Shown here piece after piece: positions 5,533 to 27,910 of a stretch of DNA of 47,593 nt. Position 1 is the stretch's first letter; each line of letters opens with the position of its first letter. Under the pieces are notes generated by a model that made no database searches, was not told where the DNA came from, and saw nothing but the letters and a program-made list of their open reading frames with translations. A program made the position numbers and the translations under genes. The stretch covers positions 1 to 47,593 of the forward strand of contig JABGPZ010000061.1 of NCBI GenBank assembly GCA_018644725.1, in the 5' to 3' direction. This DNA comes from Phycisphaerales bacterium (lineage in GTDB: Bacteria > Planctomycetota > Phycisphaerae > SM23-33).

Positions 5533-6834
5533 ATGCGCAAGATGACATTTGCCGTACTCGCTGGATTGATACTAGGTGCCGCGCTACCCTTCGCGGCGCA
5601 GGCGAAAGATCGTTTGCCATCGCGTGGCCCGATGGTGCGTCCCATGCCGGGCGGACGCGCGCCCAAACCGGCCAAACCCTCGCCAACCGCGTCGATGTTC
5701 CGTGCGTTCAACGCTGCCAAGACGATTCTCGTCGCCGACATCCAGAGCGTCAAATGGGGGCCGGTGATGGAATCGTATCCGATGCAGTACACCCTCAAGA
5801 TTACCGTCAAGCCCGGCGAAGCGCTCCGCGGCAAATTGCCTGCGGGGAAAACGCTCGTGCTGGACCATGTCATCGTCGGCATGTCCAAACCCGCCGAGCC
5901 CACCGGCAAGGTGGTGATCGCTCTGGACAAGCGCGGCAAGCGCATCGCCGCGATGTATCCCCACAGCGACACGACGGTCGCGCTGGCACGGCTGGCCAAG
6001 GGTGCGCGGGACGATTTGTTCAGCGCGTTCAACCAGGCCGAGATGCTGGTCGTGGTCAAGGCGCTTGACGTGAACTGGAGCCAAATGGTCGGGATGTCGA
6101 ACCCGCCGATGCGGAACGCAAAGGTCGGCGGCAAAGTGAGCGAAGTCTTGCGCGGCAAGGCGACCAAGGGCAAGACGATCTCTGGGTCCTACACCGAACG
6201 GACGCATCAGAAGACGAAATTCCCGGCTGGGGCGTATGTCCTCGCGCTGGCGGAATCGCGTGGCCGCGTTTCGGTCAAGAAGATCGCCAAGGCCGATGAG
6301 ATGACGCTGGCACTGGCGCGTGCGGCGGCGAGTGTCCCGGTGGGCTGGTCGCCCAACGACGGCGCGGTGTTGCTGTGTGGTAAGGGCATCACGATGGCCG
6401 TCGAGAAAGTGCCGCCTGCCAAAGCGATCAAATGGACCAACCCGGACGGCGACGGCGAATACAAAATCACCGTTACCAACACGAACAAGCAGCCCGTTAA
6501 GGTTCCTGCGCTGCTGAACGACGGCACGAAGATCCTTTGGCCCGAGAGCCTCAAAGTGGTTTGCCAGGACAAGCCGCAAAAAGCGCCCGGCGCGAAGGCC
6601 CTCCCCGCCAAGACGCAGCCGACGACGCTCAAGGCCGGCGAGAGTGTTTCGTTTGTCGTCAATGCGCTCGGCCTGAAAGATGTCACGTGGCCTCGCGGTG
6701 GATACCGCATTGAATTCCGGTTCTGCCTTGGCGAAAATTCGGCGACGAAATCGTTCTACTACATGTCGCGCCACCATGACGCTCTTCGCGCAACCGCTGT
6801 GAAACAATTCGGCGGGAAAAAATCAAAAAAGTAG
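5533..6834 (+). CDS. Secreted protein with two internal repeats, unknown function
   Basis: 433 residues. A Sec signal peptide ends near AAQA (about residue 23). After a Pro-rich linker come two related modules of roughly 110 residues. Each begins Phe-Asn-x-Ala (MFRAFNAAKTILVADI and LFSAFNQAEMLVVVKA), contains a conserved Trp about 15 residues on, and then a core ending LRGK (GEALRGKLPAGKT and SEVLRGKATKGKT). The last ~110 residues look like an Ig-type beta-sandwich (GEYKITVTNTNKQPV ... GESVSFVVNALG). I do not recognise the family. The start was chosen at the ATG 7 nt after AAGGAG (5521-5526); the upstream in-frame ATGs overlap the icd terminator and would spoil the signal peptide. Likely exported to the periplasm or cell surface. 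Confidence 0.82.
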   Translation: MRKMTFAVLAGLILGAALPFAAQAKDRLPSRGPMVRPMPGGRAPKPAKPSPTASMFRAFNAAKTILVADIQSVKWGPVMESYPMQYTLKITVKPGEALRGKLPAGKTLVLDHVIVGMSKPAEPTGKVVIALDKRGKRIAAMYPHSDTTVALARLAKGARDDLFSAFNQAEMLVVVKALDVNWSQMVGMSNPPMRNAKVGGKVSEVLRGKATKGKTISGSYTERTHQKTKFPAGAYVLALAESRGRVSVKKIAKADEMTLALARAAASVPVGWSPNDGAVLLCGKGITMAVEKVPPAKAIKWTNPDGDGEYKITVTNTNKQPVKVPALLNDGTKILWPESLKVVCQDKPQKAPGAKALPAKTQPTTLKAGESVSFVVNALGLKDVTWPRGGYRIEFRFCLGENSATKSFYYMSRHHDALRATAVKQFGGKKSKK

Positions 6835-6846
6835 AAATCCAAACCA

Positions 6847-6881
6847 TGAAAAAAGGCGTGCCCTCGGGTGCGTCTTTTTTT
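6847..6881. terminator. Bidirectional terminator
   Basis: A-run, stem GGCGTGCC / GGTGCGTC with G-U pairs and loop CTCG, T-run. It serves the secreted-protein gene (+) and the convergent antiporter gene (-). Confidence 0.88.
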
Positions 6882-6883
6882 GA

Positions 6884-7870
6884 TTAGCTCGCGACTCGCA
6901 CGGCAATGGAGATCAGATAGCCCGTGTAGCCGAGATAGATCGCAAACAGGAGTGCGCCTTCGATGCGGTTGATCCGCCCTCGGCCGCGGACGCCATAGCC
7001 CAGGACGAACAGCAACACCGTCAGCGCGGACATGACCACAATGTCGCGGCTGAGCAGGGCGGTCTTGCTGACGTCGGTGGGGTGAATCGTGCCAGCGATG
7101 CCCACCACCATCAGCGTGTTGAACAGGTTCGAACCGATCACATTGCCGATGGCGAGGTCGTGTTCCCCTTTGCGGACCGCGATGATCGATGAGGCCAGCT
7201 CCGGCAGGGAGGTGCCGATGGCGACGACGGTCAGGCCGATGATCAAGTCGGGGACGTTAAATGCCTCGGCCACTTTTACTGCGCCCCACACCAGGCCATA
7301 CGAGCTGCCCACCAGCAACACCAGTCCGGCGAACAGCCAGAAGACCGCGGCTTTGATGGGCATGGAGCATTCTTCAAGTTCCTGCTCGACGTCGTTACTG
7401 AGGACATCTTCTTTGTGTTTCAGCCCGCTACGGATCGTCCAGGTCATAATCCCCGCGAACACGATCAATAGCACGATGCCATCGAGGCGAGAGATTCTCC
7501 CGTCCCACGCTTGCCAGGCCGCGAGGCCGGTGGCGGCTGCGAGGATCGGCAATTCCTTGCGGAGGATGCGCGACTGGACGAGAACCGGGCACAGCATCGC
7601 CGTGATCCCGAGGATCAGCGCGATGTTGGTGATGTTCGAGCCGTACGCATTCCCGAGTGCGAGGTTCGGATTGCCCTGGCTCGCGGACAGCGCCGAGACC
7701 GCCATTTCTGGCGCGGATGTGCCAAAGCCGATGATGACCATGCCAATCAACAGCGTGGGCATGCCGAAATAGCGCGCCGTGGAGGCCGCCCCGTCGACGA
7801 GACGGTTCGCGCTCCAAATCAGAAGCGCCAGGCTGAAGACGATGACAAGGATGGGCAGGGTCAGGGACAT
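6884..7870 (-). CDS. yrbG: CaCA-family calcium/sodium antiporter (YrbG-like)
   Basis: 328 residues, about ten membrane segments. The two inverted alpha-repeats of the family are clear: GFGTSAPEMAVSA with LGNAYGSNITNIAL in the first half, and AIGTSLPELASSI with IGNVIGSNLFNTL in the second. The Glu of each PE motif binds the cation. A charged cytoplasmic loop (KHKEDVLSNDVEQELEE) separates the halves. It probably exchanges Ca2+ (or K+) for Na+ at the inner membrane. No ribosome site precedes the ATG; a -35/-10 pair ends 6 nt before it, so the mRNA is probably leaderless. It stands alone, with a shared terminator downstream. Confidence 0.92.
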   Translation of the reverse strand: MSLTLPILVIVFSLALLIWSANRLVDGAASTARYFGMPTLLIGMVIIGFGTSAPEMAVSALSASQGNPNLALGNAYGSNITNIALILGITAMLCPVLVQSRILRKELPILAAATGLAAWQAWDGRISRLDGIVLLIVFAGIMTWTIRSGLKHKEDVLSNDVEQELEECSMPIKAAVFWLFAGLVLLVGSSYGLVWGAVKVAEAFNVPDLIIGLTVVAIGTSLPELASSIIAVRKGEHDLAIGNVIGSNLFNTLMVVGIAGTIHPTDVSKTALLSRDIVVMSALTVLLFVLGYGVRGRGRINRIEGALLFAIYLGYTGYLISIAVRVAS

Positions 7871-19781: not shown

Positions 19782-21629
19782 TTATCGAATCAGGCGGATG
19801 CGTCCGGCATTGGGGACGATCGGCCATTGGAGAACCGGCAGGCGATGTCCCGCGGCCCAATAGACCAGCGCAGCGCGCCCGACGAAGTTCCGCCGGGGGA
19901 CCGTGCCGAGTTGGTAGGCGGGGCGGCCGTCTTTGTCGAATAGGTTCAGCGTCGGCGCAGCGGCCGACCAGCTTCGTCCGTCGTGGCTTTCGGCACTGTT
20001 GTCGCCCATGCAGAAATACTCGTCCCGGTCGGGCTCGTCCGCAAAGGCGCGAAGCGCAATGGGATTGCCGAAGGTGCCCCAAGCGCGGAAATGGCTCGAT
20101 GGCACGGCATCAAGCGAAACCGGTGTCCAGCGATTCGGGCAGGCGGGGTTGGTGTAGTCCCGCAACAACTGCCGTGCGTAGGCATATTGTTCGCCGACGC
20201 TATTCCAGTTGGGCGGAATATGCGGGGAGGTGTAGAACACGTCCCGGCTGAGTTTGACGTGCCACAGTTCGTTATCCGCGCCGAGGCGGATCTGGACCGA
20301 CGGCAAGAGCAATTCCCGTTTGGCATGGATCTCTTGCAGCGAGGCCTCGAGGCGTTGGATTTGGTCGTTGATGTCGGGCGTGGGGCTTCGGAGTACCAGG
20401 TCGCCGAGTTGCATGTCGATGTCATCTTCTTGTGCGTCGAGGCGCATGGGGCGCGTGGCCCAGTCTCTGGCAATGGCGAAGTCGCATGGGTAGTTCGAGT
20501 CGGTGGTCGAAAGCGTCGTGCCCGTGGGTTCGTCGCGAACGCGGAATTGCCAGTCGACGTGCTCGATGACCAACGATGTAGTTTCGCTGTGGCCGCGCTC
20601 GAAGGAGGCCTGGCCGAGGGTGATCCACTTGGCGTTGGCCTCGGTCCGGCTGGCGCGTTCGAGGGTGAGGGTCGATTGTTCGTAGCGAACGCGGAACTGA
20701 TGGCCGCGGATGCCGAACGTCGCGTTCGCCTTGATGGCCCCGCGTTCGAACGCTTTGAGGGTGAGCTTGAGTTGGAGGTCGGAGCAGTGGTCGTGCTTGG
20801 AGAGGTTGTTGCCGCGAAGGTTGTAGCCGTTGTGGGGCAGCCAGCCGGTTCGGTCGGGGTGGATCTTGCCGGGGCGGAAGTCCAGCGTCGCTGGTGTGCG
20901 GACGGCGGTCAGTACGCGCCCCTCCATCGTTCGCTCGACGTGGCCTTGGGTGCAGGCCCACTCTGGCGCCTCGGTGCTGCTTTCGCGGAGCAATTGCGGA
21001 TCGGGGCAGTGGTCGTTGTCATAGAAAATATGCCAGAGAACGTCTTGGGCGTGGCGCGGCTTGCGGCGAATCTGAAATTCATTGTCGGGGGCGGTCTTGA
21101 CGAAAATGTCGCCGTGGACAATTTGGATCGTTTCGCCCGGCAGGCCGATGAGGCGCTTAATGTAGTTCTGGCGATTGGTCTGTGGATTTTTGAACACCAC
21201 CACGTCCCAGGGCTTCGGCGGGCGAATGTCGTAGAGATATTTCATGACCAGCACGCGGTCGCCGCCGGAGATTTTCCGGCCTAGAGGCTTGGGCAGAACG
21301 CCGAAATTGGCGCTGTAGTCATAGTTGCAGTTCGGGCAGAGTGCTCCGGAGGGAACGTCGCCCTTGGGGTTGAAGGCCGTACCCGCAGCAGGGCTGCCAG
21401 GGTTCACGCCGCCGCTGCGATGCTGCAGGCCATGCGCCCACTGGTGCCCGCAACACGCGCAGGTGAGTTCGTAGTGCTCGCCATAGAGCCCCGTCGCCAT
21501 CGAGCCGGTGGGGATCACGAACGCTTCGATTAAAAACGCCCGCAATACGAACGCGAGAATGATCGCGATGCCGATGCCCTCGATGTTGTTGCGCGTATGC
21601 TGCCAGGATTTGACTTCCGATGTAGACAT
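19782..21629 (-). CDS. lepB: Signal peptidase I, oversized with zinc-ribbon insert
   Basis: 615 residues, about twice the E. coli protein. It removes signal peptides at the outer face of the inner membrane. One N-terminal membrane helix (about 17-38), catalytic Ser43 in IPTGSM, catalytic Lys130 in GDRVLVMK, then YIKRLIGLPGE and, only at 542, the box GDNSAESHDGRSW. Between Ser and Lys lies a four-cysteine zinc ribbon (Cys57, Cys60, Cys98, Cys101); between the Lys domain and the last box lie about 330 residues of beta-rich inserted sequence. Long forms of this kind occur in Planctomycetes. No ribosome site; a promoter ends 8 nt before the ATG. The extension to 21725 is rejected because it lies in that promoter. 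Confidence 0.93.
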   Translation of the reverse strand: MSTSEVKSWQHTRNNIEGIGIAIILAFVLRAFLIEAFVIPTGSMATGLYGEHYELTCACCGHQWAHGLQHRSGGVNPGSPAAGTAFNPKGDVPSGALCPNCNYDYSANFGVLPKPLGRKISGGDRVLVMKYLYDIRPPKPWDVVVFKNPQTNRQNYIKRLIGLPGETIQIVHGDIFVKTAPDNEFQIRRKPRHAQDVLWHIFYDNDHCPDPQLLRESSTEAPEWACTQGHVERTMEGRVLTAVRTPATLDFRPGKIHPDRTGWLPHNGYNLRGNNLSKHDHCSDLQLKLTLKAFERGAIKANATFGIRGHQFRVRYEQSTLTLERASRTEANAKWITLGQASFERGHSETTSLVIEHVDWQFRVRDEPTGTTLSTTDSNYPCDFAIARDWATRPMRLDAQEDDIDMQLGDLVLRSPTPDINDQIQRLEASLQEIHAKRELLLPSVQIRLGADNELWHVKLSRDVFYTSPHIPPNWNSVGEQYAYARQLLRDYTNPACPNRWTPVSLDAVPSSHFRAWGTFGNPIALRAFADEPDRDEYFCMGDNSAESHDGRSWSAAAPTLNLFDKDGRPAYQLGTVPRRNFVGRAALVYWAAGHRLPVLQWPIVPNAGRIRLIR

Positions 21630-21637
21630 AGGGCCAT

Positions 21638-21667
21638 AGTTTAGGCGAAAGACACTAATAAACGCAA
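21638..21667 (-). promoter_or_regulatory. Putative leaderless promoter of lepB
   Basis: Minus strand: TTGCGT (21667-21662), 18-bp spacer, TAAACT (21643-21638), 8 nt to the ATG at 21629. Confidence 0.5.
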
Positions 21668-21797
21668 GGTGTAACCTGCATTTTCGAGTTTGTTGTCTCG
21701 TGCGGCGGTTTTGCGTCAATTCCATTTCCGATCTTCGCTCGCAAGCTCGCTTCGGTCGATCTGACAGAGGAAGAAGAAATGCACATCCCTTTTTCCC

Positions 21798-22450: not shown

Positions 22451-22485
22451 AACGCTCACAGTGAACGCTGTGGGCGTTTTTTTTT
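22451..22485 (+). terminator. Terminator of efp
   Basis: AACGCTCACAG / CTGTGGGCGTT stem with a 6-nt loop, then nine T. Confidence 0.92.
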
Positions 22486-22547: not shown

Positions 22548-22575
22548 TTGAATCTCAAAACGATTTTGCTATACT
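22548..22575 (+). promoter_or_regulatory. Promoter of the HzsA-like gene
   Basis: TTGAAT (22548-22553), 16-bp spacer, TATACT (22570-22575). It leaves a leader of about 90 nt ending in AAGGAG. Confidence 0.6.
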
Positions 22576-22673
22576 GAAAACACATAGAAATTCCACGTTG
22601 TGCGCGCAGGTTGTCTGGGCGCGCTGGTGGTGTTTCACTTGATTGATCGATTACACTCATAAGGAGATTGAGA

Positions 22674-25600
22674 ATGCGAAAGATTACAATGCTACTGTTG
22701 GCACTGTGCATGGTTGCGACGGCGCAAGCTGCTTCCAAGAAGGCCGCCCGGAAGGCTGCCGCAAAGGCTGCCGCAAAGTCTGCCCCTAAAGTTGCTACGC
22801 CGGTCAAACACGGCTCTAGCGCTGTGTTGGCCGACCCCAAAAACATCAAAAACGCGATTGACGCGCTCGCCAAGAAGTTCGGCAGCGAGTATAAGAGCGC
22901 GAAATATCTCGCCGCACTCAAAGCCGCGGGCAACGACCAAGTTGCGCTCAAGAAAGTGCAAAAAGACGCTCTCGTTCTCGGCAATCCGTTGTTTGATTTC
23001 GACGAAATTCTCTATCTCAAACAGGCGGGCAAGAGCGGATTCCTCTTCCCCAACTGGCTGGGCTGTTTTTCCATGCCCCGCGCTGGGCACAACAGCACGG
23101 TGTGCCGAGTGAATCTCCGTACGGGCAAAGAGAGTGCGGTCGTCAAGGCCTTGCCTGACCGTGCGATTAGCGATGTCGATCTCGACTTCGATGCCAAGCA
23201 GATTGTCTATGGCAGCCAGGACAAAACGGGTCGCTGGCAAATTTGGAAGCACGACATCGCCAAAGACAAAACCCAAATGATCAATACGGGCGACCACTCC
23301 GATATCGACAACTATGACCCGGTGATCCTCCCCAATGGCAAGATCATCTTTATGTCGACGCGGACCTATGTGGGTGTGCCTTGTATTGGCGGGAGAGAGC
23401 CTGCTGGCGCGATGTACATTACGGATCCCGATGGAAAGAACATCCGTCAGATCAGTTTCGACCAGGAGTCGAGCTGGTATCCCACGGTGATGGAAAATGG
23501 CAAGATCATGTATACCCGCTGGGAATACACGGACAACAGCCACTACTATACGCGCATTCTGATGACGATGAACCCCGATGGCAGCGCCCAGATGAATTAC
23601 TATGGGTCCAATGGATATTTCCCCAACGCCATGTTCTATACCCGTCCGATTCCCGGCAGCGCGTCGAAGTTTGTTACGATTGCCTCGGGCCACCATGGCA
23701 CGAAGCGCTCGGGGCGCATGCTGGTGTTTGATACGAAGAATGGCCGCAAAGAGGCCGAAGGGCTTGTCGGCGAAATCGGCAAGTACGGTCAAAAGATCGA
23801 AACGCCCGTGATCGACCGTCTGGTGGACGGTGTGCCGACCCACTATCTCAATCCCATGCCGTTGGATGACAATTTCTTCCTCGCCTCGCGCCGCCACAAC
23901 AAAGCTCGCGGAAGCCGCTGGGAAATCTGCATGGTCGACATGTTCGATAACGTTGTGCCGCTGGTTTCACTGGACAGAGCGCATGCGGTGGAACCGATTC
24001 CGTTCCGCGTCACCAAGCGTCCGCCGGTCATCCCCAGCATCATCAACACCAAAAAAACCACCGGCACGGTCCACCTCGTGGATATCTACAAAGGCCCGGG
24101 CCTTAAGGACGTGCCCGTCGGTACGGTCAAAAAGCTCCGCGTGTTCGCATGGCACTACACCTACATGAAGATGGGTGGCCACCAGAACATCTCCATCGAA
24201 GGCGGCTGGGAACCCAAGATCATGCTCGGGACCGTCCCGGTCGAAAAGGACGGCTCGGCATTTATGGAACTGCCCGCGATTACGCCCATGGCGGTTCAGC
24301 CGCTGGACGCAAACGGTCAGGCGCTCCAGATCATGCGCTCGTGGTTCGTGATTCAGCCGGGCGAAAACATGGCGTGCGTCGGGTGTCACGAAGACCCGAA
24401 CATCGCGCCGCCGGCCAAGCGCACCATCGCGCTGATGCGCAAGCCCAGCAAGCTGGAACCCTGGAAGGGCCCCCAGCGCACGATCAGTTTCAAACGCGAC
24501 ATTCAGGTCGTGCTCGACAAGAATTGCGTGGGTTGCCACAACGGGACGAACAAGAAGATCCCTAACCTTCTCGCCAGCCAGAAAGACGTAGCTGTCAAAT
24601 CGAAGTGGGGCAATAACTACACCCCGTCCTACCTCCAACTGCACCCCTACACGCGTCGTCCTGGTCCCGAAAGCGACATGGCGATGCTCTATCCGTTGGA
24701 ATATCACGCGTCCACGAGCGAACTCGTGCAGATGCTCCGCAAGGGCCACCACGGCGTGACCCTTGATACGGACAGCTGGGACCGCCTCGTGACGTGGATC
24801 GACCTCAATGTTCCCGACCACGGGACCTGGGGCGAAACCACAACGCAAGCGAAAGAGTGGTCGGAGAAGCGCAACAAGATGGCCAAATTGTACGCGCCAA
24901 TTACCAAGCAACTCTACGCGGAGAAAATTATCACCAAGCCCCAGAAGGTGGAATTCATCACGCCCGCGCGTGAAGAGGCTGCCCCCGCGCCGCTGAAGCT
25001 GGCGGGTTGGCCGCTGACGGCCGCCCAGGCCAAAGCCAAGGCCAGCACGGACACCATGAGCCTCGACCTCGGTGACGGTGTTAAGGTGACTCTTGTAAAA
25101 ATCCCCGCTGGCAAATTCGTCATGGGCGATGTCAAGGGCTTCCAGGACGAATGGCCGCAGGCCGCGGTGAGCATCGACAAGGCCTATTGGATGGGCAAGT
25201 TCGAAATCACCAACGCGCAGTACCGCAAGTTCAATCCCAAGCACCACAGCCGCTACATCGACCAGCAGTGGAAAGACCACACCCGTCCGGGCTATGTGGC
25301 CAACAATCCCAATCAGCCGGTGATCCGTATCAGCTGGACCCAGGCGATGGAATTCTGCACGTGGCTCTCCAAGAAAACAGGCAAGAACGTCACCCTGCCG
25401 ACCGAAGCGCAGTGGGAATATGCCGCTCGCGCAGGCACGGCCACCTCGGCATGGTATGGCACGAAGGACAGCGATTTTGGCAAGTGCGAAAATCTCGCCG
25501 ATGCCAGCATCCAGAGACACGCCGTGATGGGCGTCAACCCCAAGCCGGTCAAGAATCCCAGCCCGCTGATCGACTTCATCCCCCGCGAAATGCGCTTCAA

Positions 25601-25883
25601 CGATGGCCAGTTCATCGGCTGTGATGTCGGCAAGTATCGGGCGAACCCCTGGGGCCTGCACGACATGATCGGCAACGTCGCCGAATGGACGCGGTCGAGC
25701 TACAAAGCCTATCCCTACAAGGCCGACGATGGCCGCAACGACCTGAACCCCGCCGACCACAAGGTCATGCGTGGGGGCAGCTGGCGCGACCGTCCCAAGT
25801 GGGGCCGCAGCGGTGTCCGTCGCGACTACCGCAGCTACCAGCCCGTCTACAACGGCGGCTTCCGCATCATCGTCGAGGAATAA
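22674..25883 (+). CDS. HzsA-like di-heme protein fused to an FGE-type domain
   Basis: 1069 residues. Sec signal peptide and Ala/Lys-rich linker (to about 45); a beta-propeller region with PD40/TolB-like repeats (about 100-430: DSDIDNYDPVILPNGKIIF, SSWYPTVMENGKIMY and others); a region like the hydrazine synthase alpha subunit; two c-type haem sites CVGCH at Cys568 and Cys618; and a C-terminal formylglycine-generating-enzyme/SUMF1 fold (about 800-1069: IPAGKFVMGD, LPTEAQWEYAARAG, GLHDMIGNVAEWTRS, GGSWRDRP). The catalytic cysteine pair that FGE enzymes carry just after the GGSW motif (here 1034-1037) is missing, so formylglycine generation is unlikely. A secreted redox or carbohydrate-binding role is possible. 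No HzsB or HzsC is encoded nearby. The ATG 22674 fits AAGGAG (22661-22666); the TTG at 22668 is rejected. Confidence 0.85.
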   Translation: MRKITMLLLALCMVATAQAASKKAARKAAAKAAAKSAPKVATPVKHGSSAVLADPKNIKNAIDALAKKFGSEYKSAKYLAALKAAGNDQVALKKVQKDALVLGNPLFDFDEILYLKQAGKSGFLFPNWLGCFSMPRAGHNSTVCRVNLRTGKESAVVKALPDRAISDVDLDFDAKQIVYGSQDKTGRWQIWKHDIAKDKTQMINTGDHSDIDNYDPVILPNGKIIFMSTRTYVGVPCIGGREPAGAMYITDPDGKNIRQISFDQESSWYPTVMENGKIMYTRWEYTDNSHYYTRILMTMNPDGSAQMNYYGSNGYFPNAMFYTRPIPGSASKFVTIASGHHGTKRSGRMLVFDTKNGRKEAEGLVGEIGKYGQKIETPVIDRLVDGVPTHYLNPMPLDDNFFLASRRHNKARGSRWEICMVDMFDNVVPLVSLDRAHAVEPIPFRVTKRPPVIPSIINTKKTTGTVHLVDIYKGPGLKDVPVGTVKKLRVFAWHYTYMKMGGHQNISIEGGWEPKIMLGTVPVEKDGSAFMELPAITPMAVQPLDANGQALQIMRSWFVIQPGENMACVGCHEDPNIAPPAKRTIALMRKPSKLEPWKGPQRTISFKRDIQVVLDKNCVGCHNGTNKKIPNLLASQKDVAVKSKWGNNYTPSYLQLHPYTRRPGPESDMAMLYPLEYHASTSELVQMLRKGHHGVTLDTDSWDRLVTWIDLNVPDHGTWGETTTQAKEWSEKRNKMAKLYAPITKQLYAEKIITKPQKVEFITPAREEAAPAPLKLAGWPLTAAQAKAKASTDTMSLDLGDGVKVTLVKIPAGKFVMGDVKGFQDEWPQAAVSIDKAYWMGKFEITNAQYRKFNPKHHSRYIDQQWKDHTRPGYVANNPNQPVIRISWTQAMEFCTWLSKKTGKNVTLPTEAQWEYAARAGTATSAWYGTKDSDFGKCENLADASIQRHAVMGVNPKPVKNPSPLIDFIPREMRFNDGQFIGCDVGKYRANPWGLHDMIGNVAEWTRSSYKAYPYKADDGRNDLNPADHKVMRGGSWRDRPKWGRSGVRRDYRSYQPVYNGGFRIIVEE

Positions 25884-25906: not shown

Positions 25907-25940
25907 GCCCGGTGGGATTCACTTCCCGCCGGGCTTTTTT
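25907..25940 (+). terminator. Terminator of the HzsA-like gene
   Basis: GCCCGGTGGG / CCCGCCGGGC stem with an 8-nt loop, then TTTTTT. Confidence 0.94.
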
Positions 25941-25983: not shown

Positions 25984-26023
25984 GTGAGGGCGCACCGTGG
26001 AGACTTTTTACTGGGAGACAACG

Positions 26024-27910
26024 ATGAACCACACACGATTTTGGATGGCGGGATTGGTTGGATGTTGTATGGCGGCGTGGGTCTTGGCCGATGGAGTGAC
26101 ATCGATCCCCAACACGAAGAGTCCCCTTTCGATTGCCAAGCAGGCCCCGCGCTTCAAGGCCGCGACGTATACCATCCCTTTCGACTGCAGCGTGAGTTAT
26201 TGCGCCAAGCCCGGCGGCGACTGGAAGGACCTCGCCAGCCTCGGCCAAGCCGGCGGTGTGGTGAAAGTCCCCGCATGTCACGAGTGGCAGCTGTACATCA
26301 GCGACCAGGATCCGCGCACCTGGGGAGATATCGGCAAAGGCCTTACAAGCCTCAATCGCCCATCGCTGCACGTTCACCCCGACTCGGAAGACTTGCTGCA
26401 ATTCCTGCCGCATCTCAACAAGGTCAACAATGTAATTTTCTGTAGCCCAGAATTGACCGACGCGGACCTCCAGGCTTTGACGTTGTGCACGGGGCTCTGG
26501 GGCCTGGATTGCAGCGGCGACGAGTTGACCAATGATGGTCTCAAGTACCTCAAGCAGCTTACAGCCATCAAAAGCCTCGACATCAGGGGCGACAATCTCA
26601 GCGATGAAAGCCTCAAGCACATCGCCGCGCTGACGACGCTCGAAGAGTTGCATCTCTACGGAGAAAATTACACAGATGCCGGAGTTGCCGCACTTGCATC
26701 GCTTACGAATCTTGAATATCTCAACATCAATTGCGCCAACGTCACCGACAAGGGTCTGGCGATTCTTCGCTCGTTTCCCAAACTCCGCCGGGTTACACTG
26801 CAGGGGAAGTTCACCACCAAGGCGTTGGCGAATCTTCAGGGCATGAATCTCCAGTGGCTCGAATTGACGAGCGAGACCCTCGGTGATGATGTCATGAAGT
26901 ACACTCGGGATATGGCGTCGTTGGAGATTCTGGACCTGTCTGGCGTGAATCTGTCTGCTACGGGCGTTGCGATGCTCAAGGACCACAGGGCGCTTCGGAA
27001 ACTTACGCTGTCCAAGTCTGTCCCCCTTGACTCTCTCAGCCATCTCGCTGGGTTGACCCAACTCGAACAATTGGAGTTCAGTGGAAGTTTCAGTGCCAGA
27101 TTCATGCGCTCAGAGGGGGAAGATTCCACCGACACGCGCCTTAAATATTACAAGCCGCTGGTGAATATTAAACGCATGGACCTGTGCTATACGGGGGTGT
27201 CTGACGCGGGGCTGGCGCATCTCAAGGGGCTTGTCGCGATGGAAGAATTGGACCTGTCGGATACGGAAATCACCTCCGAGGGACTGCTGCACCTCAAGGC
27301 GATGACGGCGATGCTCAACTTGGATAGTAGTGATACGAAGATTACCGATGAGGGACTCGTCGCGCTTTCGGAGATGACCAAGATGACGGATCTAAACCTG
27401 TCCGACACGGCGATTGGCGATTTCGGCCTGTTCCATCTGCGCACATGCACGGCTTTGGAAAATCTCAATCTGGCCAAGACGAAGATTACCGATGAAGGGC
27501 TTGCCTGCCTGAGCGATATGACCATGTTGCAGACGTTGGATTTGGACGGCACGACCATTACGGGGGCGGGATTTGCGCACCTCGGCGCACTGAAAAAATT
27601 GAAGACGATCAGTTTCAGAGAAGCGGGTGTTACAGACGCGGGCCTCGTAGGTCTCGCGGGCCTTACGGGGTTGGTCGAGCTGGATTTGTTGGGAGCCAAT
27701 GTTTCCGATGAGGGACTCAAACATCTCCATCCACTTACGAATCTTATTCAAATCAATCTGTCTGGTACGAACGTCACTCCCGCTGGGGTGGCTGCGTTGA
27801 AGAAAGCTCTCCCCAAGGCGAGCATTTCTGTAGAGAAAAGTGACGGTGACGAGCACACCATTAACCTCGATGATTTTGACATGGGAGACCTGATTATCAA
27901 CGTGAAATAG
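26024..27910 (+). CDS. Secreted leucine-rich-repeat protein
   Basis: 628 residues. Signal peptide ending near VLADG, a ~100-residue N-terminal region with two cysteines, then about 20 LRRs of ~24 residues with the pattern LxxLxLxxTxIxDxGLxxL (TDAGVAALASLTN, TDKGLAILRSFPK, TDEGLVALSEMTK, SDAGLAHLKGLVA). The repeat register resembles the cysteine-containing/RNI-like LRR class. Such solenoids bind proteins or glycans; the ligand is unknown. The C-terminus is acidic. GGGAGA precedes the ATG. The gene has a near-consensus promoter and ends only 5 nt from the convergent membrane-protein gene, with no terminator visible between. Confidence 0.88.
   Translation: MNHTRFWMAGLVGCCMAAWVLADGVTSIPNTKSPLSIAKQAPRFKAATYTIPFDCSVSYCAKPGGDWKDLASLGQAGGVVKVPACHEWQLYISDQDPRTWGDIGKGLTSLNRPSLHVHPDSEDLLQFLPHLNKVNNVIFCSPELTDADLQALTLCTGLWGLDCSGDELTNDGLKYLKQLTAIKSLDIRGDNLSDESLKHIAALTTLEELHLYGENYTDAGVAALASLTNLEYLNINCANVTDKGLAILRSFPKLRRVTLQGKFTTKALANLQGMNLQWLELTSETLGDDVMKYTRDMASLEILDLSGVNLSATGVAMLKDHRALRKLTLSKSVPLDSLSHLAGLTQLEQLEFSGSFSARFMRSEGEDSTDTRLKYYKPLVNIKRMDLCYTGVSDAGLAHLKGLVAMEELDLSDTEITSEGLLHLKAMTAMLNLDSSDTKITDEGLVALSEMTKMTDLNLSDTAIGDFGLFHLRTCTALENLNLAKTKITDEGLACLSDMTMLQTLDLDGTTITGAGFAHLGALKKLKTISFREAGVTDAGLVGLAGLTGLVELDLLGANVSDEGLKHLHPLTNLIQINLSGTNVTPAGVAALKKALPKASISVEKSDGDEHTINLDDFDMGDLIINVK

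Follow-up and report, generated by a model that had tools for sequence, protein, structure and literature searches.

Within the window, the 47,593-nt stretch of Phycisphaerales DNA analyzed here, a forward-strand gene (22674 to 25883, from the ATG at 22674 to the stop) encodes a secreted protein of 1,069 amino acids that joins a core like that of HzsA, the alpha subunit of hydrazine synthase (HZS), to a C-terminal domain of the formylglycine-generating enzyme (FGE) type; we refer to it as HzsA-FGE. All features of the window described below lie on the forward strand unless stated otherwise. A ribosome-binding site, AAGGAG (22661 to 22666), can be read directly 7 nt 5′ of the ATG, and the N-terminus, MRKITMLLLALCMVATAQA (22674 to 22730), is by eye a predicted Sec-type signal peptide. 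A promoter scan found TTGAAT-16-TATACT with TG before the −10 (22548 to 22575), which is weak evidence: the scanned region held three promoter-like sites versus about two expected by chance. In a terminator scan, the EF-P gene that lies upstream ends in an intrinsic terminator (22451 to 22478), which separates it from HzsA-FGE; another, with an 11-bp stem followed by TTTTTT (25907 to 25934), lies 24 bp 3′ of the HzsA-FGE stop. Based on these terminator and promoter scans, the gene is probably monocistronic, and its neighbors, encoding EF-P and a leucine-rich-repeat protein, offer no hint to its function. The leucine-rich-repeat protein is secreted and encoded just 3′ of the HzsA-FGE terminator (26006 to 27910), with its own −35/−10-like site (11 of 12 matches). 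Also within the window, the reverse strand (19782 to 21725) encodes a 647-amino-acid signal peptidase S26 homologue, whose two matched stretches are separated by a very large insert and whose N-terminal region contains CxxC pairs resembling a zinc ribbon.

Pfam matches, motifs and structural alignment bore out the HzsA-like architecture, a propeller plus two CVGCH sites, that the initial annotation had proposed. An AlphaFold2 model with a mean pLDDT of 82.6, built on 36 natural homologues, aligned over residues 107 to 724 with Kuenenia stuttgartiensis HzsA (PDB 5C2V chain A; Z = 31.7, 559 residues, 2.9 Å); thus, the propeller, too, is real. The full HzsA layout is present: a six-bladed β-propeller (residues ∼107 to 447; 22992 to 24014), delimited by the 5c2v_A and TolB alignments; the HZS_alpha middle domain (residues 483 to 573; 24120 to 24392), which scores 99 bits against a Pfam cutoff of 26.6; and a C-terminal cytochrome domain, with c-haem motifs at the positions of haem alpha-I (haem I, CVGCH, residues 568 to 572; 24375 to 24389) and haem alpha-II (haem II, CVGCH, residues 618 to 622; 24525 to 24539).

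Two propeller sites set the family apart from the anammox HzsA rows of our alignment. Cys237 (23382 to 23384) is invariant in the non-anammox family and Phe in the anammox rows; His340-His341 (23691 to 23696) is invariant in the FGE clade and Tyr-Met in the anammox rows. His341 is present in all eight paralogues of the HzsA-FGE genome and invariant in the aligned non-anammox proteins, but is Met in anammox HzsA. Judging from these alignments, Cys237 and His341 possibly form a family-specific metal or substrate site. His693 aligns with alpha-His772, the distal ligand of haem alpha-II; the neighboring His692 (24747 to 24749), one residue from that column, is invariant, making it the best candidate for the distal ligand of haem II.

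Other residues that characterize HzsA (numbered as in K. stuttgartiensis) have been lost. The column of the haem alpha-I proximal ligand, Tyr591, holds Asn576; Asn occupies it in 61 of 78 family members and Tyr in only 1 of 78. The column of Cys303, which together with His587 is a zinc ligand in HzsA, is a gap, Trp or Tyr in all eight paralogues and Cys in both anammox rows; Cys303 is also absent from Scalinduaceae, according to PMC12758564. Position 588 of the K. stuttgartiensis numbering holds Glu in HzsA-FGE. The whole protein scores 49 bits with the NCBIfam HzsA equivalog NF052339, far below its curated cutoff of 800. Given the loss of Tyr591 and Cys303 and this low score, HzsA-FGE is not, by its sequence, a hydrazine synthase. 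One non-FGE paralogue in the same genome (contig C110, L041:8119-11055) has CVGCHENRY at haem I, and thus a Tyr at the Tyr591 position, unlike its siblings.

The C-terminal domain (residues 806 to 1066; 25089 to 25871) has an FGE/SUMF1-type C-type-lectin-like fold, with a Pfam FGE-sulfatase score of 142 bits against a cutoff of 23.3. This end of the AlphaFold2 model matched PvdO best (Z = 25.9), followed by TvpA (24.4), PorK (22.7) and FGE itself (∼21.5); the GldK NCBIfam score of the fusion protein, 100.6 bits, is far under its cutoff of 350. The GGSW segment reads GGSWRDRPKWGRSG, with Asp1039 and Gly1044 at the two FGE copper cysteine positions. The FGE segment could be read in 77 homologues, and the cysteine pair occurs in 0 of them: Asp fills the first position in 70, and the 17 with Cys at the second position lack it at the first. 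A search for relocated copper cysteines in the family found none, so the earlier claim that the catalytic cysteines after GGSW are missing stands. Another FGE-domain cysteine, C895, is present in 36 of 36 aligned members, and we take it to correspond to a structural Cys of FGE.

Does the FGE-type domain bind something or catalyze a reaction? Its RGGSWxDRPxxxxSxxR...YNVGFR segment (25770 to 25865), defined from the sequence and a 36-member alignment, occupies the place that in DGR lectins is the variable, ligand-binding region and in FGE the active site. Conservation of the GGSW...GFR segment is 0.76, versus 0.62 for the rest of the domain (36 members), as would be expected for a single, unvarying ligand or partner. 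This segment is conserved, not hypervariable, and we rejected the idea that the protein is a DGR target, that is, a TvpA-like variable protein. The FGE-type C-type lectin fold is a general ligand-binding motif (PMC5006420), and PorK serves as a docking hub (PMC12421860). Because PvdO, TvpA and PorK are FGE-fold proteins with other roles, we infer that here, too, the fold is a binding module for a ligand or partner. It could instead be another kind of enzyme, an oxidoreductase akin to PvdO or EgtB that receives its electrons from the dihaem core: PvdO is the best fold match and carries the NCBIfam annotation dihydropyoverdine dehydrogenase, Asp predominates at the first copper cysteine position, and R1049, Y1052 and Q1056 are near-invariant in the domain. 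However, the domain has no conserved Cys pair, the same Asp aligns in PorK, which is non-enzymatic, and the iron ligands of EgtB and OvoA lie mainly in a separate domain; we therefore regard a second enzyme activity as improbable.

The initial annotation had argued that HzsA-FGE cannot activate sulfatases in the classical way, and the genome supports this: besides the missing copper cysteines, it encodes ∼59 sulfatases in 2.5 Mb and one bona fide anaerobic sulfatase maturase, anSME (420.7 bits, above the curated cutoff). We found no canonical FGE in this genome, whose only FGE-fold matches are three HzsA-FGE fusions, and no haem-copper oxidase (COX1), as would suit an organism that is anaerobic or relies on a bd oxidase. 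With a true anSME encoded, and with the FGE cysteines and haem-copper oxidase absent, the FGE fold is neither needed for nor capable of copper/O2-dependent formylglycine formation. A sulfatase maturase role was accordingly rejected. In this genome, 3 of 8 HzsA-like genes have a sulfatase within 5 kb, a proximity that is not statistically significant (P = 0.15). Genomes that have HzsA-like genes showed only a marginal excess in sulfatase density (one-sided P = 0.02, not corrected for kinship), and one genome, G041, has seven HzsA-like genes but only ∼7 sulfatase candidates.

A single-sequence scan of genome contigs yielded no matches; an alignment query yielded at least 551 confirmed HzsA-FGE loci in named genomes, of which the best 78 underlie our family counts. 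Among the matches listed, the loci fall in Planctomycetota, Verrucomicrobiota, Lentisphaerota, Kiritimatiellia, Hydrogenedentota and Sumerlaeota, with others in scattered metagenome-assembled genomes labeled otherwise, some of whose labels may reflect contamination. The spacing of the two CxxCH motifs is 50 or 51 residues in all 78 of these best loci, and all 36 aligned members match both the HZS_alpha and FGE-sulfatase Pfam families, some adding LamG, NPCBM, F5/8-C or CBM6. Conservation across hundreds of loci excludes chance as the origin of the fusion and its features. In a tree of the core domain, all FGE-carrying proteins form one clade (branch support, 90/100), so one event explains the data, and the tree points to a single origin of the fusion; one member (L038) is labeled as lacking FGE only because its contig ends inside that domain. 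Distances in the core and FGE domains covary (Mantel r = 0.65; 0 of 2,000 permutations), which argues that both evolve as one unit.

The HzsA-FGE genome (2.5 Mb, 112 contigs, 95 percent complete) encodes eight HZS_alpha proteins, three of them with FGE: the fusion described here (contig C20), one on C16 and one on C38 continued on C82. The last is one gene split by the assembly between its two contigs (L038:1 and C82:85487-85972). The other paralogues have F5/8-C, NPCBM or no accessory domain. Most relatives in the same family have no match and three have ∼20, as is typical of accessory gene families tied to a niche; another genome, G145, has 31 HzsA-like genes.

The initial annotation stated that no HzsB or HzsC exists. 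This proved incorrect: a family search found two full-length proteins resembling a fused HzsB-HzsC on other contigs of the same genome (C88:6280-8052, 748 bits; C106:12137-13861, 743 bits), both of which keep two CxxCH sites. A weak CCP_MauG match in this genome, at first noise-like, is one of these two proteins. In relatives, the corresponding neighbor protein is 605 to 660 amino acids long and combines a propeller with a dihaem domain; the family matches both 5c2v_B (E = 5e-48) and 5c2v_C (E = 1e-38), identifying it as a fused HzsBC. No Cys occurs at the third haem cysteine of HzsC (gamma-Cys165), either in the HzsBC-like family profile or in the two proteins of this genome. A radical-SAM/SPASM gene directly precedes the HzsBC-like gene on C106 (L133:4864-6036 and 6048-7862), so the HzsBC-like gene may be linked to a peptide or protein modification.

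Two further observations connect the HzsA-like and HzsBC-like proteins. First, an HzsBC-like gene adjoins HzsA-FGE on the same strand, with a gap of at most ∼200 bp, in 7 of the 78 named loci (best 78 of at least 551): L053, L054, L058, L059, L060, L067 and L128. Looser cases are L083, where it is antisense, and L078, where it is two genes away. Second, among 144 non-anammox genomes of our phylum sample, strong HzsA-like and full-length HzsBC-like matches co-occur: 9 of the 11 genomes with the former have the latter, versus 5 of 133 others (Fisher P = 1.8e-9, uncorrected for kinship). We rejected a general conserved operon for the HzsA-FGE clade, since immediate neighbors other than the HzsBC-like gene are mostly unrelated; most HzsA-FGE genes, including the one at 22674 to 25883, stand alone, and a strand shared with their neighbors is barely more frequent than chance predicts (38 of 66 and 40 of 72). 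Read most simply, the HzsA-like and HzsBC-like proteins would form a shared alpha/beta-gamma system in which the alpha subunits have multiplied.

Might HzsA-FGE nonetheless be a divergent hydrazine synthase, acting in hydrazine or other N-oxide chemistry? The HzsA fold and the HzsBC-like proteins encoded in the genome favor such a role. The replacement of Tyr591 by Asn, the lost Cys303 column, the NCBIfam score and the absence of the HzsC third haem cysteine from the partners argue against it, as does the work of Hagglund et al. (2025; PMC12758564), who also found key HZS residues missing from HzsA/HzsBC homologues outside anammox; we consider it highly improbable. The initial annotation had set the possible presence of HzsB/HzsC and anammox genes against its own reading. 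Half of that objection holds, since HzsBC-like genes were indeed found; they do not make the organism anammox, because the HzsC-specific third haem cysteine is missing. A PF13447 search for HAO/HDH-type multihaem cytochromes gave zero matches in this genome and likewise zero in the control genomes. Some genomes of the same-phylum set have an anammox-type HzsA (Tyr at the 591 position) and separate HzsB and HzsC; they acted as a positive control and put this genome in Planctomycetota.

We favor, with a probability of about 0.55, the reading that an HZS-like periplasmic redox system has been repurposed, with HzsA-FGE as its alpha-like subunit, an HzsBC-like partner and an FGE-type binding module. 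The architecture, the loss of HzsA and FGE signature residues, and the presence and co-occurrence of HzsBC-like proteins are established here. HzsA-FGE would be a periplasmic or cell surface dihaem c-type cytochrome that forms a complex with the fused HzsBC-like protein, in which a propeller is joined to a dihaem CCP/MauG-type part and whose gene lies elsewhere in the genome. Haem I, at the position of the HzsA catalytic haem, would be the candidate site of redox catalysis; its altered ligand set leads us to propose that its substrate is neither hydroxylamine nor ammonia. Haem II would be a probable bis-His electron transfer haem, and electrons would be exchanged between HzsA-FGE and the dihaem partner. 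The FGE fold, non-catalytic in the FGE sense, would anchor the enzyme to either its substrate or the beta-gamma partner.

A competing explanation, to which we give a clearly smaller but still appreciable chance, holds that HzsA-FGE is a stand-alone, glycan-targeted periplasmic protein for electron transfer or adhesion, similar to the planctomycete-specific cytochromes (PSCyt proteins), with haems that pass electrons on or bind a ligand, and that the HzsBC-like proteins are unrelated to it. Such a protein would suit a gene that looks monocistronic, a patchy distribution with strong paralogue expansion (0 to ∼20 matches in relatives, 8 in this genome, 31 in G145), HzsA-like copies that far outnumber HzsBC-like ones (8 to 2 here), and accessory domains of carbohydrate-binding type, as also reported for PSCyt proteins (PMC5615132). 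It does not account for the strong co-occurrence of HzsA-like and HzsBC-like proteins or their repeated operon-like adjacency with the FGE-fused clade, nor for retention of the whole HzsA fold, including the middle domain.

For the alpha-like subunit that we favor, a glycan substrate is speculative; the carbohydrate-binding modules carried by the family and the PSCyt precedent (PMC5615132) point weakly to such a link, and the sulfatase proximity and density results given above keep it weak. A broader version, which we consider rather doubtful, is that saccharolytic PVC-type bacteria have turned the alpha/beta-gamma system into a modular haem oxidoreductase directed at glycans, in which many alpha subunits with differing targeting modules (FGE-lectin, NPCBM, F5/8-C and LamG) would share one or two beta-gamma subunits. 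If true, anaerobes would gain a means of oxidative or reductive attack on complex carbohydrates.

To our knowledge, hydrazine synthase was long held to have no relatives. The role of this fold outside anammox could be learned from a large conserved family whose alpha and beta-gamma parts are the same but whose active-site residues differ; the HzsA-like/HzsBC-like family provides a testable system for that function. Our results also carry two warnings: HzsA matches are no ground for calling anammox, and FGE domain matches are no ground for calling sulfatase maturation, because the only FGE-fold proteins found in this genome are fusions, none of which could be a classical FGE.

Compared with HzsA (5C2V chain A), HzsA-FGE shares the propeller, the middle domain, the C-terminal cytochrome domain and two CxxCH sites, but these sites are 50 residues apart, whereas those of HzsA are 102 apart; identity to the anammox HzsA rows is ∼21 to 22 percent, and HzsA-FGE has in addition the invariant Cys237 and His341, an acidic residue 573 and the C-terminal FGE fold. 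HzsA/HzsBC homologues outside anammox were published in 2023 (PMC10732223) and 2025 (PMC12758564), so "undescribed," as the initial annotation put it, does not hold for the family at large; it does hold for the FGE-fused clade as far as the available portions of these two papers go. As reported there, clades I to IV of PMC12758564 and the hzs-like genes of PMC10732223 have two haem sites, have lost alpha-Tyr591 and Cys303, and in some genomes neighbor a fused HzsBC-like gene, all as seen here; by contrast, those portions do not mention an FGE fusion, and the alpha genes described here are greatly multiplied and in most cases not linked to HzsBC. PSCyt/PSD proteins (PMC5615132) resemble HzsA-FGE in being secreted c-type cytochromes of the same phyla with many paralogues and carbohydrate-binding modules, but belong to other domain families, with no HZS_alpha or FGE domain reported in the available portions of that paper. 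Finally, PorK/GldK (the T9SS ring), PvdO and TvpA share the FGE-type C-type-lectin fold with HzsA-FGE, and none is a formylglycine-generating enzyme: PorK uses the fold for docking, without the catalytic cysteines, and TvpA uses it to bind ligands. Unlike HzsA-FGE, none of these proteins is joined to a cytochrome, and while the variable region of TvpA is hypervariable, the corresponding segment of HzsA-FGE is conserved.
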